DNA of 64,000 bases from Acidobacteriota bacterium. GTDB taxonomy: Bacteria > Acidobacteriota > Terriglobia > Acidiferrales > UBA7541. The notes under the pieces are model-generated. The model was not told the DNA's origin. It did not search any database and was given only the letters and a program-made list of their open reading frames with translations. The stretch spans positions 62,001-126,000 of the forward strand of contig JABCZK010000012.1 in the NCBI GenBank assembly GCA_013289695.1, written 5' to 3'. Positions 2,741-37,316 of this stretch are shown piece after piece; positions within the stretch are counted from its first letter, which is position 1, and the number at the start of each line of letters is the position of its first letter. Position numbers and translations under genes: made by a program.

Positions 2741-2827
2741 GGTAGGGGCGCTGCTTGTGAATCGCGCTGCAGCGCGATTCATCCTGAGATCCCGCGGCGC
2801 GGGATCGAATGGCTGCGCCCCAGCTTG
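2741..2827 (-). repeat. Nested palindromic repeat: ~52-base double hairpin inside a GGGGCGC hairpin (copy A)
   Basis: On the minus strand an outer hairpin with arms GGGGCGC and GCGCCCC, plus flanks AAGCT and TACCGTGGCT, is split by an internal segment at about 2758-2809. That segment holds GATCCCGC..GCGGGAT, CTCAGGATGAAT and the palindrome TCGCGCTGCAGCGCGA. Unsplit copies of the same outer hairpin are at 30030-30051 and 37126-37147. The following bases 2828-3029 hold only degenerate sequence, including a GGTGGTGTGGAAGGATGG stretch related to the repeats at 5.5 kb; no gene is seen there. Confidence 0.8.
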
Positions 2828-3029
2828 CCAGGATGTCCGCGTTACCGAGTGTCGCAGGAGGGCCGTGTCCGCGTTCGCGCCGGACCAGAGGCTGAGGCAA
2901 GCGTTCGACGGGCGACTCAAGCGTCGCCGCATCTTGACCCGCGAAATCCATGGCGTACGTCGAGGTGGTGTGGAAGGATGGGCCACGCGGCTTCGGGCCG
3001 CCTCAAGTATTTCGGATTCTACTTTATCG

Positions 3030-3476
3030 CTAAATCCTCAAGGTCTCGTCTGGAATCGCGCTATCAACGGGCTCCGCCATCAGGCTCGTGACGTGCGCCG
3101 TCAATTCGGTTAAACCACCAGCCTTGGCAAGCACGGCATCAATACGGAAAAGGGACGTCAGATTCCTTTCGATATCCTGAGCGTACATGGTTACCAAGAC
3201 GATGCGAATCTTGGGCAGTGCATACCTCAGGATTCCCGCCACTTCGATGCCATTGAGGCCGGGCATTCTCACGTCCAAGATAATCATATCTGGCGATAGC
3301 TCTCTGGCCTTGGAAACCGCGTCGGTGCCATCAACCGCTTCACCGCAGACTGCGAATTCCGTGTCTCGCTCCAGTGCCTGACGGATCATCGTGCGCACCA
3401 TTTCACTGTCGTCGGCGATAAGAATTGTCTTGGGCTTATTCAATCCCGAATCGCCCGACGCCTCGGTCGTGGTCAC
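3030..3476 (-). CDS. Stand-alone receiver-domain response regulator
   Basis: This is a 148-residue protein that is almost entirely a CheY/NarL-type receiver domain: D22 and D23 in the acidic pocket, phospho-acceptor D68 in MIILDVRMPGLNG, a Thr in VLVTMYA, and the conserved Lys in VLAKAGG. There is no helix-turn-helix after it, so it is a single-domain regulator or has lost its output domain. The start is placed at GTG 3476-3474 because GGGAGGAGGG lies five bases upstream. The frame is open further to 3680, but that part resembles no receiver and has no ribosome site. No partner kinase is nearby. Confidence 0.85.
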   Translation of the reverse strand: MTTTEASGDSGLNKPKTILIADDSEMVRTMIRQALERDTEFAVCGEAVDGTDAVSKARELSPDMIILDVRMPGLNGIEVAGILRYALPKIRIVLVTMYAQDIERNLTSLFRIDAVLAKAGGLTELTAHVTSLMAEPVDSAIPDETLRI

Positions 3477-3610
3477 GTTACCCTCCTCCCGATGAGCTAA
3501 AAACATTATTGTGCGTCCGGCAATACGGTAATTCGTGTAGTCATCAGGCGGATTTGGGAGGACAGCAGTTACTTGGTACGCTGCCCGACTGACAGCTCGA
3601 TATTCCCGAG

Positions 3611-3805
3611 ATGATGTTTCGAGTTCCTCGGGAGTCCGTCGTGGAGGCGAATCACTGGCGAGAGCTATACCGCGCTGCACTTCTTGAACTCGACCTCAAC
3701 AAATTGAGAGAGCGCGTGAAGGCAACGGATGAGGCCATCGGTGTCCGAGTTTCGCTCGACGGCGAAATCCCTAGTGCGAGCGAATCGCCTTCCACGACGC
3801 CATGA
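3611..3805 (+). CDS. Small conserved-type protein (WRELYRAALLELD)
   Basis: A 64-residue frame containing WRELYRAALLELDLNKL and RVKATDEAI. From memory, short acidobacterial proteins of unknown function share the pattern W-x-x-L-Y-x-A-A-L-x-E-L-D followed by an amphipathic helix with ER..A.E.AI; this recollection is the main support. Start is uncertain: ATG 3611 has no clear ribosome site, while GTG 3641 has GGGAG about seven bases upstream. It lies between the divergent response regulator and MFS transporter. The rest of 3477-3966 shows no other gene. Confidence 0.5.
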   Translation: MMFRVPRESVVEANHWRELYRAALLELDLNKLRERVKATDEAIGVRVSLDGEIPSASESPSTTP

Positions 3806-3966
3806 ATGCGTTGAGCATCCTGAAACGAGCGCGGCGTTAAGCGCCACAACTCAGCGATCCGTTTTCGATTACCGGCGCCGCCATTCCTCAAAGTGCGCAT
3901 TCTTACCTCTGCTTCTATCTAACGATTTCAAGCGGCCGCCGACTTGCGTGATAACATCGTCGAACT

Positions 3967-5352
3967 TTGACGCCGAATAACACTCATCCACCGAAAAAAA
4001 CCCTCCCCTCGAGTAACACTCTCGTATCCGTGCTGGTGCTGTGTGCCATCAATCTACTGAACTTCTACGATCGCCAAGCCCCTGGGGCGCTCGTCGAGCC
4101 GATGCGCAGAGAGTTCGGCTTGTCCGACACCCAGATCGGGCTGCTGGGCAGCATGTTCATCTGGATTTATGCCCTGGCCGGCGTACCGCTCGGCCGCGTT
4201 GCTGACGTTTGGAGCCGTAAGAAGCTGCTTGCCATCGGAGTCACTGTATGGTCCGCACTCACAGCCGCGTCGGGTCTGGCCGCTAGCTTCTCGTTTCTCG
4301 TGTTCACGCGGCTCGGTGTGGGCGTTGGCGAGGCCGTCTGTGCGCCGGTGGGGACCAGTTGGATCGGCGATCTGTTTCCGGCGCAGCGCCGCGCGCGTAT
4401 TCTGTCGCTGTTCATGCTGGGCGTGCCGATCGGTGGCGCGCTGAGCTTTTTGTTGTGCGGGCCGATCGCGCAGGCCTGGGGCTGGCGGACAGCGCTCGTC
4501 AGCGCAGCGGCGCCCGCGATCCTCTTGGTGCCATTGTTGCTTCTTGTGCGGGAACCGGCCCGCGGTGCATCGGAGGAGGCTCCCGCTTCCGCGCCCGAAG
4601 TAAACGAGGTCAAGGGATCCATACTCGCCGTCCTGCGCATCCGCACCTTGTGGTGGATCATCTTGTCGGGCGCGCTGTTGAACTTCAACATGTACGCTCT
4701 GGCCACTTTTCTGCCGGCCTTCATGACGCGCGTGCACGGATACTCGGTCGCCCGCGCCGGCGTGACCTGCGGAATTGTCTATCTCATTGGTGGCGTGTGC
4801 GGAGGCCTGCTGGGCGGCCACCTCGGTGATCGCGTGGCCAGCAACGCGCGCAACGCTCGGCTGTCGATGGCGGCGATCATCGCGCTGCTGGGCGCACCCA
4901 TCATGTTTTACGGTATCACGCGCCCGGCGGGCTTCGCGCCTGCGGCTCTGGTGGCCATCGCCATCGGCTACGGTGCGTTCAACACCTATTACGGACCTGT
5001 TTACGCGTCGATTCAGGACATTGTGCCTCCCAACCAGCGCGCCCTCACCATGTCTGTGTACTTCATGGCGATGTATCTCTGCGGTGCGTCATTTGGTCCG
5101 CTGTTGACCGGACACCTCAGTGATTACATGGCCCGGCGCGCCATGCATGCGGCTGGCGCCGTCAGCCTGCAGGGATTCCGCGCCGTCGGCCTGCAGAAAG
5201 CCATGGTCATCATGCCCGTTCTCTCGCTGGCGCTGGCCATTGTGCTCTATTTGGGCTCGCGCACCATGAGCCACGACGTAGAGAGACGCGACGCGAGGCC
5301 GCAGGGTGGTCAGGGTGGTCAAGGCGGCGCAAGCATCACCAAGCGTCCCTAA
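3967..5352 (+). CDS. MFS transporter, spinster/hexuronate-like
   Basis: A 461-residue inner-membrane protein with about 12 predicted membrane helices. The first helix carries NLLNFYDRQ, and the MFS motif A loop reads LGRVADVWSRKK between helices 2 and 3; GVGVGEAVCAPVG follows in helix 4. This arrangement is typical of the Spns/GudP-like branch of the major facilitator superfamily, whose substrates include organic acids, sugar acids and sphingolipids, so the substrate cannot be assigned. The start is a TTG at 3967 with no convincing ribosome site, so the first 15-20 residues are uncertain. The C terminus ends in a Gly/Gln-rich tail. It is isolated from other plus-strand genes. Confidence 0.85.
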   Translation: MTPNNTHPPKKTLPSSNTLVSVLVLCAINLLNFYDRQAPGALVEPMRREFGLSDTQIGLLGSMFIWIYALAGVPLGRVADVWSRKKLLAIGVTVWSALTAASGLAASFSFLVFTRLGVGVGEAVCAPVGTSWIGDLFPAQRRARILSLFMLGVPIGGALSFLLCGPIAQAWGWRTALVSAAAPAILLVPLLLLVREPARGASEEAPASAPEVNEVKGSILAVLRIRTLWWIILSGALLNFNMYALATFLPAFMTRVHGYSVARAGVTCGIVYLIGGVCGGLLGGHLGDRVASNARNARLSMAAIIALLGAPIMFYGITRPAGFAPAALVAIAIGYGAFNTYYGPVYASIQDIVPPNQRALTMSVYFMAMYLCGASFGPLLTGHLSDYMARRAMHAAGAVSLQGFRAVGLQKAMVIMPVLSLALAIVLYLGSRTMSHDVERRDARPQGGQGGQGGASITKRP

Positions 5353-5396
5353 ACGCCCGCCTGAGAACTCGGGAATCTTTGTCGGAGGCGGCTTTC

Positions 5397-5690
5397 GTTC
5401 ATCCTGAGAGCCTGCCTGCGGCAGCCTCGAAGGGCCACGACCTAAACCGCCAAGAATCCGAGCGGCTTTAGCACCCCCACCCTGCGCATGAACCAACGGC
5501 GCGAAGGATGGCCACCCGGAAAATCAACAGCATCGGTTCGGGCGGTGCGGAAGGTTCGGCCACCCGCCCGGAAGTTCAACGGCTCCCGCCTGGGTGGTGT
5601 GAAAGGGTGGGCCTCACCCGCCATCAAAATTGGCATCCCGGAATTCTAAAGTCCAGCGTCTGGGAGGCGTGGAAGAGTGGTCACCCGTCG
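5397..5690. repeat. Tandem degenerate GGTGGCC/CCACC hairpin repeat
   Basis: The 387-base gap between the MFS gene and the nuclease holds no gene. At 5397-5436 there is TTCATCCTGAG, a small hairpin and CGAAGGG, a reduced form of the double-hairpin element at 2758-2809. From about 5500 to 5690 a unit of roughly 50-65 bases recurs about four times, each with a G(C/T)G(C/T)G(A/G)AAGG-TGGCCACCCG-like core. A related two-unit copy lies in the opposite orientation at 13305-13420. Confidence 0.7.
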
Positions 5691-5739
5691 ATCCCTGCGG
5701 AGGCCTTCACGCGCTTCAAAATGAAAATGAACCACTGCA

Positions 5740-6705
5740 TCATTTCCAGACTGCGTTCAGCGCGGCGGCCAAGCGGATCCCCGCCTTCGTCAGTTGCTCT
5801 TGAATCACACCTTCCGCGGCCGCCTGATAATCAGCGCCGACCTGCTCGTGGAGATTGAGCATTCGCGTGGAAATGTGCTGGTCGTCCGAGCAGGCCTTGA
5901 CCTCTACCGGTGTTTCGATGGCCACTTTTCTCGGCAGGGCTCCGTAAACGCTATCCTCGGCGAGTTGGTGGCTTTCCCAAGCCCAGGACACAACGTCAAC
6001 CCGCTCGCGCAGCCATGCAGGAATCTGCCCTTTGAACTTAACACTCATCTCGTCCGCAAACTGCTGGGGCGTCTGTCCGCCAGCGAAGCGTTCGAGAATG
6101 TCGGTATCCCAGATGCCGTGGAGGTTCGGCGCGTAGCTCTCCTTCGTCACGTTTCTTTCCTGAGGCGCAGCGCCGAAGAATGAAACCGGAACACAATTTC
6201 CACCGAGGTCATTGTTGCTTGTTGCATGCAGAGGCTGATGTAGATCGCCAAAGAAGTGAATGATGTATCGCAAGGCGTCAGCTCGCGCCTGTGCGCTCGC
6301 ATTGATATTCCGAAGGATTGCCATCTGATCGTCAATCGCGCGAGTGATGCAACTGGTTGAAGGCGGACAGTACGGTGCGATGGCGCCCTTCGCCACCCCG
6401 CGCGGGATGTCTATAAAGTGCCACCCCGCGGTGTCTGGCTGAATACTGCGCTGGTCATCCGCCCAGGTGGACGAATCCGCAAATGCGTCCAGGGTATTTG
6501 CACCACAGAACCGCCGCAAAGCGGGGTCTATCGGACCCGCGGCAAGAATTTGCGCCACCATATCCCGAGCATGAGGACTGAGATGTTCTTCCGCTATGAC
6601 GGCGACCACTTGGTGTCCTGTACATCCCCAACCCCGCGCGGACGGCGCGAGGCCGACGATCGCGAACAAAAACAACGTAGAACAGGTACGCCGTCTGCGC
6701 TTCAC
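5740..6705 (-). CDS. Secreted S1/P1-family nuclease
   Basis: A zinc-dependent phospholipase C/P1-nuclease fold enzyme that would cut single-stranded DNA or RNA and release 5'-nucleotides outside the cytoplasm. The signal peptide (KRRRR, then LFLFAIVGLAPSARG) is followed directly by Trp26; in this family the N-terminal Trp of the mature protein coordinates zinc. Further metal-ligand motifs are GH at 30-31, HFFGDLHQPLHA and NLHGIWDTDIL. Length 321 is usual. The start is GTG 6705-6703 with GAGGAG five bases before it; the upstream in-frame ATG lacks this. It lies 86 bases behind the TonB receptor on the same strand, probably in one operon. Some family members have phosphomonoesterase activity too. 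Confidence 0.92.
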   Translation of the reverse strand: MKRRRRTCSTLFLFAIVGLAPSARGWGCTGHQVVAVIAEEHLSPHARDMVAQILAAGPIDPALRRFCGANTLDAFADSSTWADDQRSIQPDTAGWHFIDIPRGVAKGAIAPYCPPSTSCITRAIDDQMAILRNINASAQARADALRYIIHFFGDLHQPLHATSNNDLGGNCVPVSFFGAAPQERNVTKESYAPNLHGIWDTDILERFAGGQTPQQFADEMSVKFKGQIPAWLRERVDVVSWAWESHQLAEDSVYGALPRKVAIETPVEVKACSDDQHISTRMLNLHEQVGADYQAAAEGVIQEQLTKAGIRLAAALNAVWK

Positions 6706-6791
6706 GTTGTCTCCTCGAAAATGCGCAAATTTACCCAATCGAGCTCAGTTTTACGATTTCTGCCCGACCCGTACCCCGAACCCGATCCGTA

Positions 6792-9700
6792 CTAGAACAT
6801 CAGATGCAGCGCAAACTGCATGAATCGTGGGCTTCCAATCGAGTTCTGGATCACTCCGAGAGTCCCTCCACTCCCCCCCGGCGGGCATTGATATGCACCC
6901 GTCGCTGGGAAGCATGCCGACGAGTAAGTTGGAGGATTAGCGAAAAAGGGATTAAAACTGGGATTGTTGAAGGGGGTGTCAAAGCTCGGATGGTTGAAGA
7001 GATTGAAGATCTGGGCGTCGAAGCGCAATCCAAACCGTTCGGTTAGCTTGAAGTTCTTCGTGACGCTAAAATCAAAGCGCGTCTGGAAGGGACCTCTGAA
7101 TATGTTACGACCCGAGTTGCTGAATGCCGACTCAAAAGGATCGTCGAGCGGCACACCGTCGGTTCCGGGTGGAATCAACAAGGGCAGGAATGCATTTTGA
7201 TTTAGCACGGGATTGTTCCCATTTACGCCGGTAGTCCCCTGGAGCAGCGCCGTCTTAGGAGTAAATCCGGGTGCCAGGCCGATAATGGGATTCGTGACGA
7301 AGTCATTCGTGCTGAACGCCAAGCTGCCGGCCCCGCCGCTGAAATCGATAACGCTATAGGGCTGACCGCTCTGTGCAACAGTGATGCCGGAGATGCCCCA
7401 ACCATTCGCGACCTGGTTGAGAAGGCCGGTGGCATGAGCAATCGTGGGAAAACTATAGATATAACTAATCGCCAGAACGTGCGTCCGGTCGAAATCAGAG
7501 TTCCCATACGCGGACCGGAGATTTCTCGGATCGTTGCCGTTGAAGAACAGGCTGGTTCCGCTTTGTTCGTCGAGCGAGTGAGAGTAGGTATAAGAACCCG
7601 AGATCTGCAATCCATGACTCAGCCGCTTGGTTACCTGGAACTGCAAAGCATTGTAGTTTGATATTCCCACTGCTTCGTAAAATACCGAGTTCGGACTGTA
7701 TCCCACGAACGGCACGCGAAGATCGGTGTTGCCTCCCGTGCTGGTGTTAAATACTTCGAGCGGACCGGCGTTGTAACCATACGAAGAAGTTTGTCCGTTC
7801 ACTGGGTTCGTAGCTGTTGCGGTGAGTGGCTGGTTGAAGGGCAGAGGTATCGTGCCATGGACACCGCGGTTGCCGACATATCCGAGGTCGAGGAGCAGAG
7901 TGTTGATGGGCTGCCACTGCAGGTCGACTGTCCAGTTTTCCGAGTATGGAATGGAATTCTTCGGATCGTAACCTCCGAACAGAAATGGGCTCGCGCCGTT
8001 TTCAAGTTCAGTAAGGTTGGGCAGAAGAGCCTCTACTTGAGACAAGTTGTTAGGCGGGGCAGGCGGCGCTGCGGTGCCGAACGGGTTGGCGATCGTCGGG
8101 GTGTTTGCGCCTGGGCCGCAGTTCGGGATCGGGTTTGCCGACGCTTTCGGTACGCAGGGCACCACAAACGGGGGCGCGAGCGTAACACCGAATGGTCCGT
8201 TGAACCCGTTTCCGGCACCCGGGGAAAACTCGGTAAAGAATTCGCCGCGATCGTAGTACATGCCGAAGCCCGCGCGAACCACGAAGTTCGTTAAGACGGA
8301 AGGGCTCCAGGCGATTCCGATGCGGGGTGCAAATCCCCACTGGCGTCCGGTTAGCGTGGAATTGCTTATTCCCGGCGTAGGAAACGTTTTGTTATTTCCA
8401 GCTACAACTAGGCCGATGTTGGTAATCGTATCGGTAGCTAAATCAAAAGAATAATTTTGCGGACTAAAATTGGTCAGCAACCCATCTTTTTCTGTGAGCG
8501 GCCCATCCCAATCCCAGCGAAGACCCGCAGTCACCGTCAAATTGTGGCTAACCTTGAACGCGTCCGAGACGAACACTCCGGCTTGATTCGAGCGGTAATA
8601 GCGATTGCTGGCTCCATTGAAGAAGGCCGTGTTCTCTTCACCCGTTCGCAGGTCCCCCAGCAGGAAGCTCGGGAAGTCGTTGAAGGCCAGCTTCGCGGCC
8701 TGGTTGTTCTTATTGATTATGTTGAGCTGGGTGTAATCCCAATTCAGTCCCGTAGAAATCGTCTGCCGGCCGTGGACCCAAATCAAATTTGTGTCACCTT
8801 CCCACTGATTCTGGAAAGCGCCGGCGTTGGCGAACGGCGAATTCGAGCCGATCGTAAGGGAACCGCCGTTGGGGTCAATATTTCCAGCGAAATTGTTGAT
8901 CTGAATTCCAGGAAAGAGGGGGTTGCCAAAAACATTGATCCCGGCAGCCTGAGGCGTGAGGGCTTGGGCCGTATTGGCGTACGCGACTTCGCGGATAAAT
9001 CCTCCCCTCTGTTCCCAGGTGAGATTCGGAGTTAGCACGGTGGTGTTCTCGATTGACACGGTTTGCGCGCCTGCATTCAAGGTCTGTGGGAATCCTTCCA
9101 GGCTCGATTGCGCGAACGGGCTTGTATTCGGATCACGCTGATAAAAATATTTTACAGCCAGCCTGTCTTTCGGGCTGAACTCGTAGTCAACGTTTCCGTT
9201 CACTTGATCGGCCGTAAACCTGGAAGTATCCTGCAACGCCACATTGTGTCCAACACTACTCACCGTAGAGCAGTCCGTCGGCGTACAAGGGAGCACTGGG
9301 TTGGGTATCACAAAATTACCGTTAGGGAGTTTGGCCGAAAGTATGTTGACTGCCTGCTGCGTCACCTGGCTGGGCAGGATATTCGTTCCAAAATCTACAT
9401 TGGCAACGGCGGCCAAACCTGCGGCGCTGCGATCGCTCGTCAAAGTGGTGGGGACGTTAATTTTACTGGTGGCATTCAATTGATCGGAGTCGCGAAGCCC
9501 CTGGTAAGATGCAAAGAAAAACATCTTGTCCTTGCGAATGGGGCCGCCAAATGTGCCGCCGAATTTGTTGTAGTGTATGGCCGGCACGGCGGGAATGGAG
9601 GTATCCTCTTTGCGGAAGAAATCGGCGGAATTAAAAATGGTATTCTGGAAGTACCCGTACACCTGACCGTGGTAATCGTTGGTTCCCGACCTCGTGCTTA

Positions 9701-10535
9701 CCGCAATGTGTGCGCCGCTGTTCGCCCCCTGAGTTGCGTCGTACATTGACGTATTGACCTGCAACTCCTGGATTGTTTCCACCGGAGGAGTGGGCAATCC
9801 CTGTCCGATTGCTCCAAAAACAGATGTGCTGGTTTGAATTGTGGCATCGACAAAGTTTTCGCCGGTACTCAGCACAAAACGATTGTCCAAAACCTGGCTT
9901 GAAGAGTTTCCGTTGAAAATGTTATTGGCATTAATACCGTTGAAAGAGAAGCTGTTGCTGGTGGAGCGCTGGCCATTGGCAAAGACGTTTTGGTTGCCCA
10001 AGCCGGCGCCCGTACCGGAACCGCCAAGAAGATCAGCGTTCACCCCTGGAGCCAGAATCGCCAGCTGCGTGAAGCTGCCGGTTCCAAGCGGAAGCGATTC
10101 AATTTCGTCGGGACCTAGGGTGTAGCCGTTCGTCGTGTCTGTTTGATTCAGCAGTGGGGTAGCGTTCACTGTAACGCTGGAAGTGACTGCACCTGGCTGG
10201 AGCCGCGCGTTCACCGTAGCTGTGCGGTTCCCCTGCACGATGATCTCGGGATAGTTTTCCGTCTTAAATCCGTTCCTGGAAAACGTCACCTCGTATGTGC
10301 CGATGGGAAGATCGGGAATCTGGAATGATCCGTCAGCCTTGGTCTCAGCGGTGACGGTGAGGTTCGTGGCTGTGTTGCGGGCTTTGACTGCTACGTTTTG
10401 CAGGACCCCGCCGCTGGAGTCTGTGACTGTGCCGTCGATCCAGCCCAAGGTCTGCTGCGCAAACGTCGAACCATGACCAAGAACCACAAACAGAAATGCG
10501 ATGACACACCCAACCCGCACGAAATTCAATTTCAT
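6792..10535 (-). CDS. Giant TonB-dependent receptor, Oar-like
   Basis: A 1247-residue outer-membrane protein. It has a signal peptide (residues 1-26, ending in STFAQQ), a carboxypeptidase-regulatory-like beta-sandwich at about 28-115 (GWIDGTVTDSSGGVL, then ADGSFQIPDLPIGTYEV), a TonB plug and a long beta-barrel ending in Phe (QFALHLMF), the usual outer-membrane insertion signal. This architecture is greatly expanded in Acidobacteriota and is used for uptake of large or complex substrates. The start is ATG 10535 with GAGGTG upstream, not the longer frame to 10637. The companion gene downstream encodes a secreted nuclease, which hints at nucleic-acid breakdown products as substrate, but that is inference. 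Confidence 0.93.
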   Translation of the reverse strand: MKLNFVRVGCVIAFLFVVLGHGSTFAQQTLGWIDGTVTDSSGGVLQNVAVKARNTATNLTVTAETKADGSFQIPDLPIGTYEVTFSRNGFKTENYPEIIVQGNRTATVNARLQPGAVTSSVTVNATPLLNQTDTTNGYTLGPDEIESLPLGTGSFTQLAILAPGVNADLLGGSGTGAGLGNQNVFANGQRSTSNSFSFNGINANNIFNGNSSSQVLDNRFVLSTGENFVDATIQTSTSVFGAIGQGLPTPPVETIQELQVNTSMYDATQGANSGAHIAVSTRSGTNDYHGQVYGYFQNTIFNSADFFRKEDTSIPAVPAIHYNKFGGTFGGPIRKDKMFFFASYQGLRDSDQLNATSKINVPTTLTSDRSAAGLAAVANVDFGTNILPSQVTQQAVNILSAKLPNGNFVIPNPVLPCTPTDCSTVSSVGHNVALQDTSRFTADQVNGNVDYEFSPKDRLAVKYFYQRDPNTSPFAQSSLEGFPQTLNAGAQTVSIENTTVLTPNLTWEQRGGFIREVAYANTAQALTPQAAGINVFGNPLFPGIQINNFAGNIDPNGGSLTIGSNSPFANAGAFQNQWEGDTNLIWVHGRQTISTGLNWDYTQLNIINKNNQAAKLAFNDFPSFLLGDLRTGEENTAFFNGASNRYYRSNQAGVFVSDAFKVSHNLTVTAGLRWDWDGPLTEKDGLLTNFSPQNYSFDLATDTITNIGLVVAGNNKTFPTPGISNSTLTGRQWGFAPRIGIAWSPSVLTNFVVRAGFGMYYDRGEFFTEFSPGAGNGFNGPFGVTLAPPFVVPCVPKASANPIPNCGPGANTPTIANPFGTAAPPAPPNNLSQVEALLPNLTELENGASPFLFGGYDPKNSIPYSENWTVDLQWQPINTLLLDLGYVGNRGVHGTIPLPFNQPLTATATNPVNGQTSSYGYNAGPLEVFNTSTGGNTDLRVPFVGYSPNSVFYEAVGISNYNALQFQVTKRLSHGLQISGSYTYSHSLDEQSGTSLFFNGNDPRNLRSAYGNSDFDRTHVLAISYIYSFPTIAHATGLLNQVANGWGISGITVAQSGQPYSVIDFSGGAGSLAFSTNDFVTNPIIGLAPGFTPKTALLQGTTGVNGNNPVLNQNAFLPLLIPPGTDGVPLDDPFESAFSNSGRNIFRGPFQTRFDFSVTKNFKLTERFGLRFDAQIFNLFNHPSFDTPFNNPSFNPFFANPPTYSSACFPATGAYQCPPGGSGGTLGVIQNSIGSPRFMQFALHLMF

Positions 10536-16716: not shown

Positions 16717-16795
16717 GGCGAGGCAAGCCTCGCCTGTGCGTTTTGTTGCCGGACATTCAGTATCGATGAAAGCGGCGGCAAGCCGCCGTACTCCA
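16717..16795. repeat. Paired CAAG-loop hairpin repeat (copy 1)
   Basis: GGCGAGG-CAAG-CCTCGCC at 16717-16734 is followed by a spacer containing GTTTTGTTGCCGGACA and GATGAAAGC, then GCGGCGG-CAAG-CCGCCG and TACTCC at 16772-16794. The same order, spacer and ACTCC end recur at 22313, 33203 and 43637, and a compressed copy is at 30090. It fills the valS-birA gap. Confidence 0.85.
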
Positions 16796-18838: not shown

Positions 18839-19083
18839 AACGCGAGGCAAGCCGCCGCAGGCCAAAATGGACTGCGAGTGGATGCTAGGTGCGAACGCGA
18901 GAGATCGAATTGCGGGCGGCGCCGAACGAAAGGCGCCCGCCTAAAGCACAGGCGGCCGCAACAAATTCAACGGCAAGTTCGAAGGCGACGGGACGCAAGG
19001 CAAGGCGGCGGCCCTTCGATCCCGCACCGCGGGATCTCAGGAAGTATCGCGCTGTGGCGCGATTCACAAGCCGCCGCACTCCA
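18839..19083 (+). repeat. Repeat cluster with nested double-hairpin element (copy B)
   Basis: The 358-base gap between coaX and the next gene holds no gene. GCGAGGCAAGCCGCCGCAGG at 18841-18860 is a collapsed CAAG-loop repeat; CGCCCGCCTAAAGCACAGGCGGC lies near 18938-18958. At 19005-19082 the hairpin GGCGG..CAAGCCGCC, ending ACTCC, is split by a 55-base insert at 19012-19066: CCCTTCGATCCCGC-ACC-GCGGGATCTCAGG, then ATCGCGCTG/GGCGCGAT and TCA. The right boundary is exactly at CAAG. Confidence 0.85.
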
Positions 19084-26640: not shown

Positions 26641-26674
26641 TTGTAGTGCGGCAATTGGACGCGCCGTTGCGTTT

Positions 26675-29900: not shown

Positions 29901-30025
29901 GCCCTGTAGCGCGAACCTCCAGACATGATTGAAGCGTTTGCGAAAAGTGTTGTGGCGGCGCGCTCATTTTCGGCGAGCGGTTCGCGACGCGGTGCTACCC
30001 TCCATGACGGCCTGACATTCTGGCA

Positions 30026-30138
30026 CGCCGGGGCGCAGCAAGCAGCGCCCCTACCGTGGCTACCGAGTGAAGGTGGTGCCAGTAGTCACGCGAGGCAAGC
30101 CTCGCTAAATGCAAGGCGGCAGCAAGTCGCCGCACTCC
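30026..30138. repeat. Composite repeat: GGGGCGC hairpin plus CAAG-loop hairpins
   Basis: GGGGCGC-AGCAAGCA-GCGCCCC, then TACCGTGGCT (30030-30060), AGGTGGTGCCAGTAGTCA, GCGAGG-CAAG-CCTCGC at 30090-30105 and GGCGGCAGCAAGTCGCCGCACTCC to 30138. The same order occurs at 37126-37316. The outer hairpin is uninterrupted here, unlike copy A at 2741-2827. The rest of the 468-base gap 29901-30368 shows only the hppA promoter. Confidence 0.85.
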
Positions 30139-30264
30139 CAGATAGCCTCAGCGAGCGAAATCGCGCGGCGAGGTTTTCCTTCGCGCTGCCGCAGCGAACT
30201 TTTCGTGCGCTATTCACTCACGTTTTGTTTCTGCCTCCGCCCCGGCGGAAGGCAGCCTCTTTTC

Positions 30265-30293
30265 TTGACGTTAGAGGGGTTTCCTGATACAAA
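30265..30293 (+). promoter_or_regulatory. Candidate hppA promoter
   Basis: TTGACG at 30265-30270, a 17-base spacer and TACAAA at 30288-30293 put the start of transcription near 30300. This leaves a leader of about 70 bases before the short ORF at 30369. Confidence 0.45.
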
Positions 30294-30368
30294 AAAAAGG
30301 CCATTCAGGTCTGTAACTTCTCGCTGTCAGCAGGCTCCCCGATTAAGGAGTCTTCATCCGGAGGAAGA

Positions 30369-30428
30369 ATGTCGGTACAAGTATGGGGTTACATGTGCGC
30401 CAAGGTGCGCATGGCGGGGGGCGAATAA
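30369..30428 (+). CDS. 19-codon leader ORF coupled to hppA
   Basis: ATG 30369 has a strong ribosome binding site (GGAGGAAGA just before it), reads 19 codons (MSVQVWGYMCAKVRMAGGE) and stops at TAA 30426-30428. That stop shares its last A with the hppA ATG (TAATG). The hppA ATG itself has only a diffuse G-rich upstream stretch. The arrangement suggests hppA is translated by re-initiation after the leader. No similarity of the peptide to anything known was noticed, and it may act only through its translation. Confidence 0.5.
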   Translation: MSVQVWGYMCAKVRMAGGE

Positions 30429-32905
30429 TGCTGCAGGTGGTGCAAATTCTGTGGAAACTGGGATGTCGCGCCGGGCGAGTCGGCGCAGCGGGATGTACCG
30501 CGATTTTATTGAGCGCAGCCACAGCGCAAGCGCGGACGGCGCCGGAAACGGCGGGTGGTGAAGCGAACCTGAAGTTGCCGGATTTGTCGTCGGTAAATTT
30601 TTGGGGGATGGATGGGCACAAGCTTTTGCTTTTTGGCATTTTGTTCTGCGTGTTCGGGCTGGCGTTTGGCATGGCGATTTACACGAAGCTGAAAAACCTG
30701 CCGGTGCATCGCGCGATGCGCGAGATTTCCGAATTGATTTATGAGACCTGCAAGACCTACTTGGTTACGCAGGGGAAATTCCTGCTGCTGCTGGAAGCGT
30801 TTATCGCCGTGGTGATCGTGCTGTACTTCGGCGTGCTGCTGCATTACCAAGCGGCGCGCGTGATTATCGTTCTGGCGTTCAGCATGGTTGGAATCATGGG
30901 GAGCTTCGGCGTGGCGTGGTTCGGGATTCGCGTGAATACGTTCGCGAATTCGCGCACGGCGTTTGCGGGGCTGCGCGGAAAGCCGTTTCCGATTTATCAC
31001 ATTCCGCTGGAAGCGGGCATGAGCATTGGCATGATGCTGATCAGCGTGGAATTGCTGATGATGCTTTTTATTCTGCTATTTATTCCGGGAGATTACGCGG
31101 GGCCGTGCTTCATCGGATTTGCGATTGGCGAATCGCTAGGCGCGGCGGCGCTGCGCATCGCGGGCGGCATTTTCACGAAGATCGCGGACATCGGGTCCGA
31201 CTTGATGAAGATTGTTTTCAAGATCAAGGAGGACGACGCGCGCAATCCCGGCGTGATTGCGGATTGCACAGGCGACAACGCGGGCGATTCGGTGGGACCG
31301 AGCGCGGACGGGTTTGAGACGTACGGGGTGACGGGCGTCGCGCTGATTACGTTTATTTTGCTGGGCGTGAAGAACGCGGACCCTGCGGTGCAGGCGACGA
31401 TTCAGGTGCAATTGCTGGTGTGGATTTTCGTGATGCGCATCGCGATGCTGGTGGCCAGCGCGGCTGCTTACTTTTTGAATGATTTTATTTCCAAGGCGCG
31501 GTTTGCTGCCGCGGACAAGATGAATTTCGAATCGCCCCTGACTTCGCTGGTGTGGATTACTTCGCTGGTTTCGATCGCGATGACCTATGCGATTTCGTCG
31601 GTGATTATTCCGACGCTGAAAGGCGACCCGACCCAGTGGTGGAAACTTTCCACGATTATTTCCTGCGGCACACTGGCTGGAGCGATTATTCCGGAGCTGG
31701 TGAAAGTTTTCACTTCGACCGAATCGCGGCACGTGAAGGAAGTGGTGGCGTCGGCCGAAGAAGGCGGCGCGTCGCTGGGAATTTTGTCAGGATTTGTGGC
31801 TGGGAATTTCTCGGCTTATTACATTGGGCTGGCGATGGTGCTGCTGATGTCCATCAGTTACCTGGTGAGCTTACAGGGGCTGGGCAATCTGATGATTGCG
31901 GCGCCGGTGTTTGCTTTTGGCCTCGTGGCTTTTGGATTTCTGGGGATGGGGCCGGTGACGATCGCGGTGGATTCCTATGGACCGGTGACGGACAACGCGC
32001 AGTCGGTGTATGAGCTTTCGCTGATCGAGACGATTCCGAACATCCAGCAGGAATTGAAGCAGGATTTCAATATTGATGTGAATTTTGAGCGCGCGAAGGA
32101 ATTGCTGGAGGAGAATGACGGGGCCGGTAACACTTTTAAGGCTACGGCGAAACCTGTGCTGATCGGCACTGCGGTGGTGGGCGCTACCACCATGATTTTT
32201 TCGATCATCATGGCGCTGACGAACGGCATCACGCAGGACGTGGACAAGCTCTCGCTGCTGCATGCGCCGTTTTTTCTGGGGTTGGTTACCGGCGGTGCGA
32301 TGATTTATTGGTTTACGGGGGCTTCTACGCAGGCGGTCACCACCGGAGCGTATCGCGCGGTGGAATTCATCAAGGCGAACATCAAGCTGGAGGGCGTGGA
32401 GAAAGCGTCGGTGGAGGACAGCAAGAAGGTGGTGGCCATCTGCACGAAGTACGCGCAGAAAGGTATGTTGAATATTTTCATCGCTGTTTTCTTTGGGACG
32501 CTTTCCTTCGCGTTCGTTGAGCCTTTCTTTTTCATCGGGTATCTGATTTCGATCGCGATCTTTGGATTGTATCAGGCGATTTTTATGGCGAATGCGGGCG
32601 GGGCTTGGGACAACGCGAAGAAAATCGTGGAAGTGGAGATGAAGCAGAAGGGCACGCCGCTGCACGACGCGACTGTGGTGGGCGACACGGTGGGCGATCC
32701 GTTCAAGGATACTTCATCGGTGGCGCTGAATCCGGTGATCAAGTTTACAACTTTATTTGGATTGCTGGCCGTGGAATTGGCGGTGCAATTGACGGCTGAG
32801 AAAGGCGGAAATTTGACGCATATTTTGGCCGCGGCGTTCTTTTTGGTTTCGTTCTTCTTTGTGTACAGATCTTTCTACGGGATGCGGATTAAGGGGTCGG
32901 AGTAG
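30428..32905 (+). CDS. hppA: Membrane-bound ion-translocating pyrophosphatase
   Basis: An 825-residue inner-membrane enzyme with about 16 helices that couples PPi hydrolysis to H+ (or Na+) pumping. The active-site segments are DIGSDLMKIVFKIKEDDARNPGVIADCTGDNAGDSVG with FETYG, and near the C terminus NAGGAWDNAKK and HDATVVGDTVGDPFKDTS. In the cation-selectivity helix, GNTFKATAKP carries Lys at the position that distinguishes K+-independent from K+-dependent (Ala) enzymes; the second marker three residues on is Ala rather than Thr, so subtype and ion are uncertain. ATG 30428 overlaps the stop of a 19-codon leader ORF. Its 3' end overlaps a convergent small gene by 17 bases. Confidence 0.95.
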   Translation: MLQVVQILWKLGCRAGRVGAAGCTAILLSAATAQARTAPETAGGEANLKLPDLSSVNFWGMDGHKLLLFGILFCVFGLAFGMAIYTKLKNLPVHRAMREISELIYETCKTYLVTQGKFLLLLEAFIAVVIVLYFGVLLHYQAARVIIVLAFSMVGIMGSFGVAWFGIRVNTFANSRTAFAGLRGKPFPIYHIPLEAGMSIGMMLISVELLMMLFILLFIPGDYAGPCFIGFAIGESLGAAALRIAGGIFTKIADIGSDLMKIVFKIKEDDARNPGVIADCTGDNAGDSVGPSADGFETYGVTGVALITFILLGVKNADPAVQATIQVQLLVWIFVMRIAMLVASAAAYFLNDFISKARFAAADKMNFESPLTSLVWITSLVSIAMTYAISSVIIPTLKGDPTQWWKLSTIISCGTLAGAIIPELVKVFTSTESRHVKEVVASAEEGGASLGILSGFVAGNFSAYYIGLAMVLLMSISYLVSLQGLGNLMIAAPVFAFGLVAFGFLGMGPVTIAVDSYGPVTDNAQSVYELSLIETIPNIQQELKQDFNIDVNFERAKELLEENDGAGNTFKATAKPVLIGTAVVGATTMIFSIIMALTNGITQDVDKLSLLHAPFFLGLVTGGAMIYWFTGASTQAVTTGAYRAVEFIKANIKLEGVEKASVEDSKKVVAICTKYAQKGMLNIFIAVFFGTLSFAFVEPFFFIGYLISIAIFGLYQAIFMANAGGAWDNAKKIVEVEMKQKGTPLHDATVVGDTVGDPFKDTSSVALNPVIKFTTLFGLLAVELAVQLTAEKGGNLTHILAAAFFLVSFFFVYRSFYGMRIKGSE

Positions 32906-33137
32906 CGCGGGCGATCCGCCGGAGAAATTCGTCGAGAGAATCGGGCTTGGCGCGGCCTGAGTCGAGATTTTCCATTCGGCGGACGATTGCAGCATCCCAG
33001 GCTTTTTCGACTGATTCGTCTTCTACGACATCGAGGCTCTCGACTAGAGAACATGCGAGCTTCGCACGTTCGGTCTCCGAGAGCGCGAGCGCTTTCTTCC
33101 GAAGGTCGGATAATTCTCGGTTCACGCAGTCCATCAT
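32889..33137 (-). CDS. Addiction-module antitoxin-like protein (TIGR02574 type), orphan
   Basis: An 82-residue protein with LRKKALALSETERAKLACSLVESLD, then VEKAWDAAIVRRMENLDSG and a C-terminal SLDEFLRRIARA. This is the pattern of the putative addiction-module component family that pairs with ParE-like toxins: SxxERxxLAxxLxxSL near the start and W..E..RR..E.. in the middle. Normally the toxin follows within a few bases; here the stop codon lies inside the 3' end of hppA on the opposite strand, and no toxin gene is present. ATG 33137 or 33134 is the likely start; the frame upstream of it is Cys/Ser-rich and unlike the family. Confidence 0.75.
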   Translation of the reverse strand: MMDCVNRELSDLRKKALALSETERAKLACSLVESLDVVEDESVEKAWDAAIVRRMENLDSGRAKPDSLDEFLRRIARATPTP

Positions 33138-33202
33138 ACTTCGAAAACAGCTGGACGCGGAGCATTGTTGCGCAATGCGGCAGCCTGTTTGCGAATCGCT
33201 TG

Positions 33203-33288
33203 GGCGAGGCAAGCCTCGCCTGGATCGGGCTCGGCTGAGCTGGGCAGGGCTGGGGTTTTTGCGAAAGCGACGGCAAGCCGCCGCACTC
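33203..33288. repeat. Paired CAAG-loop hairpin repeat (copy 3)
   Basis: GGCGAGG-CAAG-CCTCGCC at 33203-33220, a 44-base spacer that differs from copies 1 and 2 but ends in TTTTTGCGAAAGC, then GACGG-CAAG-CCGCCGC and ACTC at 33269-33288. Confidence 0.85.
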
Positions 33289-33345
33289 GAAATGCGTGTC
33301 GACTCGTCTGCATCCTCGCTGGTTCGCTTCCGATTGCTTCCGACT

Positions 33346-34593
33346 TTACGCTTTGACTAGGCCCAGGAATTGGCGGGGGTCGTTAGCGAAGCCGGGGAAG
33401 ACTGTGGACAGGTCACGGTCGCCTAGATGTTTGTTGATGATTTCGCCTAGGACGCTGCGATAGTCTGTCGTGACTGCCAGGTCGCGGCCTTGGTTGAGCT
33501 GGCCTTCGGCCAGGCCGGGCCAGCGCGTGTAGACTCTGCCGCCCTGGATGTCGCCGCCGATTACGAACATGCAGTTGGCATGGCCGTGGTCGGTGCCACG
33601 GTTGCCGTTTTCCTGCGCGGTGCGGCCAAATTCGGACATGCTGACGAAGACGACGTCGCCCATACGATCGCCCATGTCTTGATTGAATGCGGCGACTCCC
33701 TGCCCGAGATCACGCAGCAAATTCGAAAGCTGGCCCTGCACGCCGCCTTCGTTTACGTGATGATCCCAACCGCCACTATCGAGGAACGCAACTTCGAGGC
33801 CGACATCGGCTTTGAACAGCTCCGCGATTTCCTGCAGGCTCTGCCCGAAACGATTCTTAGGATACTCCGCGCCATTTTCCGGTTGGTACTTGTCCGGATT
33901 TATTTTTTTGAGCTGGTCGATGGCTTCGAAGGTTTCGGTGCCTACGCCGCGCAGCGCGCGATCGACGGTTTGCGCGTACATGGCTTCGAAGCCACCTTCG
34001 GTGGTTTGCTGCGGGCCGTTCATTTTGAATTGTTTCAGGTCGGGGATGGCAACTGCTGATGCGCTGCCTTGTAGCGTGCGCGGGAGATAAGGTCCGAACG
34101 CAACCGCGCGAAATGGCGACGGCTTTTCTTCGGGCATGGTTTGCAGGGCGCGATTGAGCCAGCCGTCGTCAGTGGCTTTGCGGCCGGGAGTGCCCGATTC
34201 CATGAAATCCTGCGCGTCGAAGTGGGAGCGCGTGGGATCGGGCGAGCCGACCGCTTGCACGATGGCGAGTTGTCCACTGCGAAACAGAGGAAGCATTGGC
34301 GCCAGGCTTGGATGCAGCCCGAAGAATCCGTCGAGATCGAGCGCGGCATCAGTGCTGCCCTGGCGCGGTTGGGGAATCGCGATGGTGGGGCGTATGTGAT
34401 AGTAATTCGGTTCGCCGAAGGGCACGACGACGTTGAGACCGTCCATGGCGCCGCGCTGAAACAGCACGACCATTTTCTTGTTGTTGATCGCGGGGGTGCC
34501 GGCGACGGCGCGTCGCAAAAACGAGGGCAGTGCGGCCATGCCGAGCATTGCCACTCCGCCGTTTTTCAGGAAGTAGCGCCGTGAGATTGTCAT
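33346..34593 (-). CDS. DUF1501 Tat-exported protein
   Basis: A 415-residue protein beginning with a twin-arginine signal (ISRRYFLKNGGVAMLGMAALPSFL). The DUF1501 fold, related to alkaline phosphatase/sulfatase proteins, is shown by VLFQRGAMDGLNVVVPFGEPNYY, SHFDAQDFMESGTPG, VAFLDSGGWDHHVNEGG, VFVSMSEFGRTAQENGNRGTDHGHANCMFVIGG and VTTDYRSVLGEIINKHLG. The Asp/His clusters could bind metal. Function is not established. It almost always pairs with a DUF1800 protein, here encoded upstream on the same strand at 34984-36939, with a hairpin array between. ATG 34593 has AGGAGC about eight bases upstream. Confidence 0.92.
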   Translation of the reverse strand: MTISRRYFLKNGGVAMLGMAALPSFLRRAVAGTPAINNKKMVVLFQRGAMDGLNVVVPFGEPNYYHIRPTIAIPQPRQGSTDAALDLDGFFGLHPSLAPMLPLFRSGQLAIVQAVGSPDPTRSHFDAQDFMESGTPGRKATDDGWLNRALQTMPEEKPSPFRAVAFGPYLPRTLQGSASAVAIPDLKQFKMNGPQQTTEGGFEAMYAQTVDRALRGVGTETFEAIDQLKKINPDKYQPENGAEYPKNRFGQSLQEIAELFKADVGLEVAFLDSGGWDHHVNEGGVQGQLSNLLRDLGQGVAAFNQDMGDRMGDVVFVSMSEFGRTAQENGNRGTDHGHANCMFVIGGDIQGGRVYTRWPGLAEGQLNQGRDLAVTTDYRSVLGEIINKHLGDRDLSTVFPGFANDPRQFLGLVKA

Positions 34594-34628
34594 TGCCGTG
34601 CTCCTATGCTGCGCGAAAACCGTACTTC

Positions 34629-34975
34629 AGCGGCTAAAGCCGCTCGTTCTTTTTCACTCTGATGTCGTGGCTAAAGCCACGACCTACAAAGCAACGTCAA
34701 ACACGCCCGCCTGAAAGACAGGCGGCAGCTACAAAGTCAAAAGCGAAACCAACGTCAACGGCTGCCCGGTTCGATGAAACTGAACCGGCCGCTACAAGTG
34801 CAAAGGCAACGTCCACATCAAAGTCCAAGCCAAAGGCGCCGGCCTGAAGGTCGACGCTACCCTTCGATCGCGCACCGCGGGATCTCAGGATGAATCGTCC
34901 TGTGGGGCGCTTCACAAATTCAAAGACAACGTCAACTGCAACAGAGCCGGCGGGACGCCGGCGCTACAAATTCAA
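34629..34975. repeat. AAAG-loop hairpin array with GCTACAAA connectors (block 2), including double-hairpin copy D
   Basis: This fills the DUF1800-DUF1501 gap. In order: AGCGGCTAAAGCCGCT (34629-34644), TCGTGGCTAAAGCCACGA (34665-34682), CCGCCTGAAAGACAGGCGG (about 34707-34725), CCGGTTC..GAACCGG (34766-34788), a CCTTCGATC..GATCTCAGGATGAAT element (34860-34914) and GCCGGCGGGACGCCGGC (34946-34962). Nearly every hairpin is followed by (C)GCTACAAA and then TCAAA or GCAACGTCAA. Stem sequences differ but stay self-complementary. Confidence 0.85.
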
Positions 34976-34983
34976 CGACTAGG

Positions 34984-36939
34984 CTACCGGCGCTGAAATT
35001 CTGGGGTGCCTAGAACTAGGCCTACGATCAGGCCTTCGTTAACTTGCTTTACGGGATCATCGAGGCGCGCTTGCAGAATTTGGGGATCTTTCAGGCGCGC
35101 TTCCAGAGTTTCTTGTGTTGATTGTGAAATCTGGCCATCGAGGAAAATTTGTATCGAGCGGGCCAGGGCTGCGCTGGGATCTTTGGAGGCTGCTTCGCCG
35201 AGCATGGTATTTAGATCTACCGTGGCACCGCCCATTTTGTCTCCGGCGAAGGCGAGCGCGAAATTCAGGCGATTCAGCAGCGCGCCGGTGTTCACCCAGG
35301 TTTCCGCTTTATCGGAATATCCCGTGGGAGGCTGGCAGAGATAGAGCGGCTCGCCCATGCGCGCGACCCATTGCGAGAGGGGCAGCGAGATCGTGGATTC
35401 GGCGTTCAGCGCGCGCGAAGTGCTGGCTACGAGTTCAAAGGGCGTCTTGACTTTTGAGCGATACGCTCCTCGCGACCAAAACTCGGGCGAATAAATCATG
35501 GTGCGCAGTACAACGCGAATGTCCCCGTTGCTTGTCCTGAAACGTTTTGCCATGCGGTCAACGAGCGAGGCGGGCGGATTGTCCGAAACGAACTGGTGTG
35601 CCAGCTCAAGGGAAATGAAATGCGCTGTGGCGGGCTGGCTGGCGAGCATTTTCAGGGCTTCTTCTCCGTCTTTTTCGCCGCCGTAATTGAAGGTGTGGCC
35701 CATCACGACTTTATTGCCCTGCTCGTGGATTTTTTCGTCGAAAAAGAATTGCGGATCTTTGCGCGGCTCGTGAATGGTCCAGCCCGTCAGGCATTCGGCC
35801 ATTTGAATCACGTCCTGCTGCGTATAGCCGCCATCCACGCCGACGGTGTGGAGCTCCATCACTTCCCTGCCGTAATTTTCATTCAGGCCGCGGTCAGGTT
35901 TCTTAGCGGCGGGGTTGGACGCGGTTGGTGGGCCGCTGGAGGCTGGTCCTGGGAACGTGCCGGGAGTGGGCATGGAACCGCCGGCGAATGCGCCTTGATA
36001 GCGGGCGCGACGAAAATTTTTCTCGGCCTCCATGCGCGCGACAGCGGCCGGATCGGCGCTCAAATAATTGTCGAGATAGAAAAGCATTGCGGGACTTTTC
36101 GCTGTGGCCAGAAGCAAATCTTGAAATTTGCCCATGGCGTGCGGGCGAATGGTGTCGCGCTCGTAAGCGGTGAGCAGCCACTTGTCGTCGCCTTTGTTCG
36201 CGAAGACATTGAAGTGATTGCACCAGAAATCTTCCATCACGGCCTGGAGCTGGCGATTGCTGTAAACGGCGCGATCCACTTTGGCCATGGAAAGTTCGGC
36301 GATGATGCGATTGGGGCCTTGCAGTTTAGCCAGTTGCTGCTGGGCTTTATCGAGATTGTCGTTGCCGGTGACGATGATTTGCGATTGGGCTTCTTGCTGC
36401 TTGGATCTCAGCTGCTGTTCGTATTGATCCTTGGCTTGTTCTTTCGTGAGGCCTGGTTGCTTGGCGTTCTGGTCGGGGCGCGGAAATTCTTCGAGCAGGC
36501 GCTTGGACGACATTTCCAGAGTCGGGTAGCGCTGGAGGCGCAGATTCAGGTCCGCGTCGTTGATTGATTCGGGATGCAGTTGCTGTTCGATCCATTTTTC
36601 CAGGCCCATTTGGCGCACTTGCTCGACGTCGCCCGGGCGCGGGCCGTAGGCGAGGCGATTCATGGCGTGGAGGATGGCTTCGTCTTCGGTTAGTTCGGTG
36701 ATGGGGAGCTTGCCTTTAAATTTTTTGTCGAGGGCGACGCGCTCGAGAGCCGCGGCGGAACTCATAGTAGATCGGGCGTTGAACTGACTGGCGTTCGAGG
36801 CGCGGGCGTGCGGGACCGCCATGGTGAGGCCGAGCGCGAGTAGGCCAAAGAGGAGAGCGGCGCCGGGTGCGTCCAGGCGGTCGCGGTTGCTGGTCCGAAG
36901 GATTTTATTCTTCTGCACGGCAGCGGCCTCATGGCGCAC
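34984..36939 (-). CDS. DUF1800 family exported protein
   Basis: A 651-residue protein with a hydrophobic export segment (ALLFGLLALGLTMAVPHARA). DUF1800 signatures are AILHAMNRLAYGPRPGDVEQVRQMGLEKWIEQQLHPE, VMEDFWCNHFNVFANKGDDKWLLTAYERDTIRPHAMGKF, NENYGREVMELHTVGVDGGYTQQDVIQMAECLTGWTI and SPEFWSRGAYRSKVKTPFE. A Gly/Pro-rich insert (GSMPTPGTFPGPASSG) lies near residue 325. The family is of unknown function and is co-inherited with DUF1501 in Acidobacteria, Planctomycetes and Bacteroidetes; an exported oligomeric or polymer-related role has been suggested but not shown here. The start is GTG 36939 without a clear ribosome site, so the first residues are uncertain. Confidence 0.9.
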   Translation of the reverse strand: MRHEAAAVQKNKILRTSNRDRLDAPGAALLFGLLALGLTMAVPHARASNASQFNARSTMSSAAALERVALDKKFKGKLPITELTEDEAILHAMNRLAYGPRPGDVEQVRQMGLEKWIEQQLHPESINDADLNLRLQRYPTLEMSSKRLLEEFPRPDQNAKQPGLTKEQAKDQYEQQLRSKQQEAQSQIIVTGNDNLDKAQQQLAKLQGPNRIIAELSMAKVDRAVYSNRQLQAVMEDFWCNHFNVFANKGDDKWLLTAYERDTIRPHAMGKFQDLLLATAKSPAMLFYLDNYLSADPAAVARMEAEKNFRRARYQGAFAGGSMPTPGTFPGPASSGPPTASNPAAKKPDRGLNENYGREVMELHTVGVDGGYTQQDVIQMAECLTGWTIHEPRKDPQFFFDEKIHEQGNKVVMGHTFNYGGEKDGEEALKMLASQPATAHFISLELAHQFVSDNPPASLVDRMAKRFRTSNGDIRVVLRTMIYSPEFWSRGAYRSKVKTPFELVASTSRALNAESTISLPLSQWVARMGEPLYLCQPPTGYSDKAETWVNTGALLNRLNFALAFAGDKMGGATVDLNTMLGEAASKDPSAALARSIQIFLDGQISQSTQETLEARLKDPQILQARLDDPVKQVNEGLIVGLVLGTPEFQRR

Positions 36940-37101
36940 GATGCGCTAGCAAACATAACTGGCCTTCGTTGCTTGCATCCAGTTTAACCCTGCGATCGCG
37001 CGAAAGTTGCAAGGGGGGCCTAGTGGTCAACACCGGGCAGCGAGCTCAGGTCGTGTGCTAGTTTGCCGTTAAGCGAGTCAGGAGGTCGCGGGAAAAAGGC
37101 C

Positions 37102-37316
37102 GCGAGGCAGACGCCTCGACAAGCTGGGGCGCAGCAAGCGGCGCCCCTACCGTAGCTAACGCGCAGAGGTGGCGCCAGAAATCAGGCGAGGCAAATCTAG
37201 ACTAACTCGTTGTGGCGCGGACGCCGAAGCAACGCGGGGCGTGGCCCTTCGATCCCGCACAGCGGGATTTGAGGATGAATTGCGCTGCAGCACAATTCAC
37301 AAGCCGCCGCATTCCA
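37102..37316 (+). repeat. Composite repeat with double-hairpin element copy C
   Basis: CGAGGC-AGAC-GCCTCG (37102-37118), AAGCT-GGGGCGC-AGCAAGCG-GCGCCCC-TACCGTAGCT (37121-37157), AGGTGGCGCCAGAAATCAGGCGAGGCAA, then a GCGTGG..CAAGCCGCCGCATTCC unit split by a 55-base insert at 37245-37299: CCCTTCGATCCCGC-ACA-GCGGGATTTGAGGATGAAT, TGCGCTGCAGCACA and ATTCA. As in copies A and B, the insert ends directly before CAAG. Together with 36940-37101 and 37317-37375 this gap of 436 bases holds no gene. Confidence 0.85.

Follow-up and report, generated by a model that had tools for sequence, protein, structure and literature searches.

The DNA considered here is a stretch of 64,000 nucleotides from an Acidobacteriota bacterium (assembly GCA_013289695.1, contig JABCZK010000012.1, positions 62,001 to 126,000), which we call the window, and it carries four copies of a short double-hairpin element. 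The element comprises 54 bases plus one ambiguous C, giving a repeat of about 55 bases with the termini CCTTC and TTCA/TGAA. Hairpin 1 has the form CCTTC-GATCCCGC-NNN-GCGGGATC and is followed by the linker TCAGGA, 3' of which lies hairpin 2, TGAATCGCGC-loop-GCGCGATTCA. At least two kinds of hairpin 2 are found, CGCGC..GCGCG and CGCCC..GGGCG, and pairing is preserved in both. The copies occupy positions 2758..2811 (minus strand, 82.1 bits), 19013..19066 (plus, 78.9 bits), 34861..34914 (plus, 73.0 bits) and 37246..37299 (plus, 75.0 bits). All four had been noticed in the initial annotation and are confirmed; with a covariance model built partly from them, searched against the window, they score 73-82 bits with E values from 4e-20 to 1e-17.

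Two of these copies split an older hairpin whose uninterrupted form occurs elsewhere in the window. Host hairpin A may be written GGGGCGCAGC^AAGCAGCGCCCC, where the caret marks the point of insertion. At the first copy one half of A, GTAG GGGCGC TGCTTG on the plus strand, lies at 2742..2757, with its CTTG adjoining the element, and the second half, GCTGCGCCCC AGCTTG, lies at 2812..2827. The second copy interrupts host hairpin C (GCGGCGG-CAAG-CCGCCGC), with the left arm GCGGCGGC at 19005..19012 and CAAG plus the right arm GCCGCCGC at 19067..19077. Whole, empty A hairpins are located at 30030..30051 and 37126..37147 and whole C hairpins at 16773..16788 and 43691..43708, all on the plus strand; these are the four intact sites that had been proposed, one of them displaced by a single base (16773 for 16772). 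The same annotation had described three copies as abutting the CAAG of a split hairpin. At 2741-2827 and 19005-19082 a hairpin is indeed split, with arms that match. CAAG also adjoins the copy at 37246; there, however, an A-like left flank, GGGGCGTGGC, is paired with the right flank of C, CAAGCCGCCGCATTCC, and as the two do not match this copy is a hybrid. It is unlikely to be an assembly join, because the genes around it are also neighbours on one contig in several relatives (for example, those labelled G001, G002, G010 and G012). The remaining copy, at 34861, has a third context, B, with CTAC before it, CAAATTCAAAG after it and no loop. These data support the conclusion that filled and empty forms of the same host hairpin coexist and that the unit was inserted at one exact position.

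The same arrangement recurs throughout the genome to which the window belongs, an incomplete assembly of 4.5 Mb in 64 contigs. A covariance model built from 11 copies, partly those of the window, identified at least 79 distinct copies, a lower bound in that the best 150 of 7123 candidates were scored and matches were listed to an E value of 1. This number derives from 80 rows of at least 37.5 bits, one of which (C4:165202, minus strand) overlaps C4:165226 on the other strand and was subtracted; the tallies of flanks and skew below retain all 80 rows. Independently of the model, the strict pattern finds 8 places in the genome, 7 of them outside the window, and none in a reversed control. Only two of 62 copies fall within an open reading frame of at least 200 codons, and the copies are thus mostly intergenic, like other high-copy short palindromes of the repetitive extragenic palindrome (REP) type. 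Whole A hairpins number 30 within one mismatch (0 in the reversed control), and 15 copies of the element have A arms on both sides, with CAAGCTGGGGCGCAGC before and CAAGCAGCGCCCCTACC after the element. The most common flank class is B, CTAC^AAATTC, beside GTAG-type REP hairpins, with GGCCGCTAC before and CAAATTCAAAGGCAAC after; 22 copies carry both of these flanks and a further 18 one of them, under a loose rule that admits a few tandem copies. A hairpin unlike A, B or C, TCGCAGCGTGGC^AAGCTGCGA at C2:160532, is filled at the same position, and by eye five copies have hybrid flanks, with one host family to the left and another to the right.

Some further copies and likenesses may be recorded here. 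Tandem pairs occur at C25:41979/42035, C9:85858, C10:95648/95706 and C15:32996; in these the last arm of the first copy is missing, and CCAAC links the two copies. A looser cousin, CCTTCGAGG..CTCAGGATGAA, lies in the window at 5372..5433 (minus strand, 21.5 bits). Other cousins overlap the stop codon of dnaK (locus L082, 1501-1555, in this genome, and L114 in G009) and that of groEL (L116 in G002 and, by likeness, L112 in G021), the stop codon being supplied by hairpin 2. No Rfam family matches any window copy of the element at the gathering score; the only Rfam match in the window is Acido-Lenti-1 RNA at 55914-55959 (plus strand, 44 bits).

Comparison of filled with empty sites defines the target, on the strand that reads CCTTC, as RC^AAR and leaves one ambiguous base, C, which could be a target duplication. 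The junctions are GCAGC^AAGC in A, GCTAC^AAAT in B and GCGGC^AAGC in C, and the left flank is NNRC in most copies. Fourteen of the 80 rows lack the TTCA end and were excluded from the junction counts; among the remaining 66, RC before and CAAR after the element are found in 39, and the base on the left is C in 60. A fixed rule places 12 of the 39 intact junctions in a hairpin loop and 6 immediately 3' of a hairpin; the other 21 are in neither position. The proposal that the unit enters one position of a loop is therefore sustained as to the exact position, given the 30 whole and 15 split A hairpins, and not as to loops as the general target, since only 12 of 39 junctions lie in one and the largest flank class, B, has no loop.

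Loops are nevertheless over-represented. With filled sites counted genome-wide and unfilled sites over 1.2 Mb of the G-rich strand, 12 RCAAR sites in loops outside genes are filled and 69 unfilled, compared with 21 and 1037 for sites without a hairpin (odds ratio 8.6, p 8e-7), and sites just 3' of a hairpin are mildly over-used (odds ratio 3.1, p 0.026). Most of the loop fills belong to family A, and the larger ratio does not come from independent events. In 860 kb, GGCGG-CAAG-CCGCC is whole 22 times, with one clear fill and three copies in which only the right flank is alike, and GGCGAGG-CAAG-CCTCGCC is whole 19 times with no fill. The often-filled hairpin A has a loop of 8 bases and the rarely filled hairpins tight loops of 4. 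Because most loop fills are of family A and CAAG tetraloops are almost never filled, sequence together with local exposure explains more than loops alone.

A priori, the A units might represent a single composite that spread as a whole. A tree of hairpin arms labelled as filled or empty (30 empty and 17 filled; 5 filled rows were set aside for their odd flanks, as were 8 empty sites belonging to relatives) requires 14 changes of label, with a mean of 14.1 after shuffling. A tree of the element (50 rows of 54 bases, with an A or B label on 43) requires 12 changes, compared with a shuffled mean of 14.1, and 83-87 of 500 shuffles gave values as low. Derived states common to arms and element do not exceed chance (p 0.56, n=15). 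An apparent correlation between the two sets of distances (Mantel r 0.84, p 0.0024, n=15) was due to two mis-framed copies and was discarded as evidence for composite spread; r falls to 0.09 once they are removed (p 0.36, n=13). Because neither tree shows a single spreading composite, the comparison favours repeated insertion, within the low resolution of these trees.

The orientation of the copies is strongly biased. The strand that reads CCTTC..CAA is on the G-rich side of the local GC skew in 72 of 79 copies (73 of 80 rows), with skew windows of 16 kb for part of the rows and 3-kb flanks for the others. With 3-kb flanks throughout the proportion is 71 of 80, and after thinning to one row per 20 kb it is 48 of 55. 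Six of the seven exceptions have an absolute skew below 0.12; the seventh, the copy fixed behind dnaK, has the highest value, 0.132. The direction of genes was considered as a cause and rejected, as the polarity persists whatever the arrangement of the neighbours (24/24 where both are opposite, 8/10 where both are the same, 25/28 where they are mixed); genes of at least 200 codons have no preference for the G-rich strand (219 vs 286). The host hairpins are polar as well: A in 26 of 28 cases, C in 21 of 22, GGCGAGG-CAAG-CCTCGCC in 18 of 19, the B junction in 44 of 52 and the B hairpin end in 47 of 61. Copies without A or B flanks retain the polarity in 12 of 15 cases, and in 8 of 9 at skew above 0.05, which suggests, without proving, that the polarity of the element is independent of its host.

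This behaviour extends to recurrent hairpin loops. Among perfect hairpins with a stem of at least 7 in 860 kb of this genome, four loop classes reach 12 cases, and every one of them is polar relative to GC skew: CAAG (25:1), TGAA (23:2), TAAA (14:1) and GGA (14:0). In 343 kb of the relative G024, A hairpins are polar in 19 of 23 cases, and in 14 of 14 at skew above 0.05, with TGAA 16:1 and TAAA 10:0. One contig of G001 offers no recurrent loop class usable for this comparison.

The skew itself has a sawtooth form, with domains of roughly 100-200 kb, on contigs C1, C2, C5, C9 and C12 and in the window at about 4-8 kb, a pattern that is unusual for a bacterium. In strongly skewed stretches its sign is identical at fourfold sites of plus- and minus-strand genes; dnaA (C5:77397) is not at an upshift, and on a 328-kb contig of G001 the sawtooth is weaker and less regular. 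Transcription was rejected as the cause for 20-kb stretches of this genome with a bulk skew of at least 0.1, because the sign of the fourfold-site skew was equal from plus and minus genes wherever both were measured. Orientation tracks GC skew, and it would report the direction of replication if skew reflects replication. The strand polarity fits single-strand insertion by a Y1 transposase, and the earlier idea of a single-stranded target is upheld in kind only, from this polarity and from the presence of a RAYT gene in the genome.

That gene, of 182 codons on contig C15, is the only Y1 gene found by a Pfam search of this genome, and it is identified as a RAYT by NCBIfam NF047646 (97.6 bits, cut-off 80). 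One full and one partial element lie directly 3' of it, and it is the sole intact RAYT, the three further RAYT-like stretches being weak fragments. A weak and broken stretch of this kind is noted at C9:12763-13131 (23.9 bits), about 1 kb from the element copy at C9:14125. The nearest relatives of the RAYT are from Acidobacteriota, three of them titled Candidatus Acidiferrales. Genes of this clade (L149-L163) are flanked by inverted GGGTGCC..GGCACCC hairpins.

Comparison with 19 other genomes of the genus, with the best 150 candidates scored in each, gave one or two model matches of 42-69 bits in 5 and no match at E<=1e-6 in 14. Whole A hairpins are present in 12 of the 19. In G024 there are 37 of them and no element match at E<=1e-6 among the scored candidates; a loose pattern allowing 2 substitutions gave 11 matches in 343 kb of this genome, three of which look by eye like distant cousins (TCTTCG..CTCAGAATGA), and none of the cousins in these 343 kb is inside hairpin A. 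The B junction is nearly restricted to this species, with 16 matches here and one each in 2 of the 19 relatives. At the 2758 locus the relatives match one side only. The gap around 34861 measures about 390 bases here and roughly 12-110 in G002, G009, G010, G011 and G012; there the block was gained in this lineage, and the sequence in which its parts arrived is not visible.

We suggest, at about an even chance, that the element is a non-autonomous, asymmetric unit of the REP type, inserted precisely at RC^AAR, on whichever strand the local skew shows to be G-rich, by a nuclease of the RAYT kind, and that it spread recently, in this one species. The unit would insert between RC and AAR of a short motif, mostly GCWRC^AAR, on a strand that would be the lagging-strand template if skew reflects replication. 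This motif appears simply to lie in the wide loop of A, an old REP family, and in another, B, to come immediately 3' of the CTAC foot, and for this reason copies would end both inside and beside hairpins. The putative Y1 HUH nuclease would cut after similar NNRC tetranucleotides, CTAC or CAGC on the left and TCAC at the right end of the element, and the unit would have moved as single-stranded DNA. A RAYT-type enzyme is the most likely mover.

Several observations weigh against this proposal. Within flanks of up to 3 kb and at E<=0.1, none of 80 RAYT-homologue loci, retained from 394 found, carries the element, and all 12 homologue flanks inspected by eye show a GGGTGCC..GGCACCC hairpin beside the gene. 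By eye the same hairpin also stands between the RAYT of this genome and its elements (L009, about 2039-2075). It is likely, judging from these flanks, that this hairpin is the cognate REP of the RAYT clade, and the elements beside the gene may be there by chance. A check for a RAYT or IS200-like transposase, as recommended in the initial annotation, thus yielded one intact gene with elements 3' of it and homologues that lack them, and the RAYT was downgraded from proven cognate enzyme to presumed one, as its homologues carry another hairpin and no element. Among the relatives compared there is no orthologous filled and empty pair; both flanks of the gap orthologous to 19013 were located at 18 loci in 17 genomes, while an additional genome lacks a flank, and in those 17 the gap holds neither hairpin C within 2 substitutions nor, by loose patterns, the element. 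Both trees, with 45-54 columns, are poorly resolved. The junction motif is not intact in 27 of 66 copies and is common to copies mainly because they share two host repeat families, and elements in A and B contexts could owe their polarity to the polar host hairpins.

Other explanations must be weighed against these data. Element, A and B might be blocks of species-specific mosaic arrays, like bacterial interspersed mosaic elements, shuffled by recombination or gene conversion with no transposition. The five hybrid copies would be expected from such shuffling, as would the near confinement of the B junction to this species, and at 19013 the element and hairpin C, both missing in 17 relatives, arrived together at that resolution. 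We consider it unlikely, for A hairpins are whole in relatives without an element match, the sequences around A units show no relationship past about 45 bases, and the junction is identical to the base in the unlike hosts A, B, C and C2:160532. The last of these, whose sequence differs although the element sits at that very position, could also be cited for machinery that recognises an extruded hairpin or loop and gives sequence little weight, as could the excess of filled loop sites and the preference for the wide loop of A over tight ones. Such guidance by structure is quite unlikely, however, given that the loop fills come mostly from one family and are not independent, that 27 of the 39 intact-junction copies are outside loops by the same rule, and that CAAG tetraloops are almost never filled.

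The pattern might instead reflect survival, if insertion were broad and only oriented copies in REP loops and feet were tolerated or useful, for instance as structures at mRNA 3' ends. The cousins that overlap the dnaK and groEL stop codons do suggest selected 3'-end copies; the orientation is independent of neighbouring genes, with polarity in all four gene arrangements, and selection as a general cause seems to us quite improbable.

How REPs move has been deduced chiefly from the biochemistry of RAYTs and from statistics of genomes. A unit that is young and asymmetric, that has exact filled and empty host sites and whose strand polarity is strong leads directly to a prediction open to test, namely insertion at RC^AAR with cutting of one strand at NNRC. 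A wider interpretation, which is possible yet doubtful, is that the REP-type hairpin families of this genus and the element nested in them are laid down one-way at the replication fork, so that the copies record fork direction in domains of about 100-200 kb and an unusual mode of replication; this would be the first asymmetric REP unit whose lagging-strand insertion can be read from sequence alone. The polarity of loop classes would, if confirmed, provide a cheap readout of fork direction.

The initial annotation knew of no account of loop targeting. REPs inside palindromes, some with empty targets, have in fact been reported, namely GTAG-23 of T. roseum, for which hundreds of copies of the target palindrome are given, and dimers of GTAG-15 in A. 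variabilis and CGTC-1 in H. neapolitanus (PMC3733652). There, as here, small palindromic repeats lie inside larger ones; the present element differs in that it is asymmetric, consists of two hairpins and also occupies a second context outside loops, and in the accessible part of that account of nested REPs we found no target motif, strand polarity or test of independence. A narrow full-text search gave no printed description of CCTTCGA..CAGGATGA palindromes, which the initial annotation placed in other bacterial genomes. In a limited search of open papers, seen in part, we found no report that REP families share a replication-strand polarity, that recurrent hairpin loops are polar or that an asymmetric unit of two hairpins has an RC^AAR site. 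The nesting of REPs in palindromes was thus already known and, within the literature so covered, the strand polarity is the new result.

The element resembles RAYT/REP systems such as REPtrons and REPINs, as far as the available portions of two accounts describe them (PMC6006769, PMC3116915), in its many short hairpin repeats, one full-length TnpA_REP gene and copies beside that gene. A related polarity has been described, in that tandem REP arrays are forward on one side of a genome and reverse on the other (PMC3116915), and RAYT-like genes of Acidobacteria with unusual flanking hairpins are on record; PMC6006769 also cites work on replication and the orientation of transposons. In contrast to these systems, which have inverted REPs, the hairpins of the element are unlike each other and stand in direct order, it has no 5' GT[AG]G foot, GTAG being found instead on host hairpins A and B, and the RAYT clade of this genome has another flanking hairpin. 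Nor is it a REPIN, for its two hairpins have different sequences and neither is an inverted copy of the other. With IS200/IS605 elements such as IS608 it shares, from what could be consulted of PMC6006769, two subterminal hairpins, and it may share a short left target tetranucleotide and a preference for the lagging-strand template; unlike them it has no internal gene, and its cleavage sites and guides are putative. Finally, insertion sequences that enter REPs (PMC1525189, consulted in part) likewise use a REP palindrome as target, but there full insertion sequences are inserted, whereas here the units are of 55 bases.

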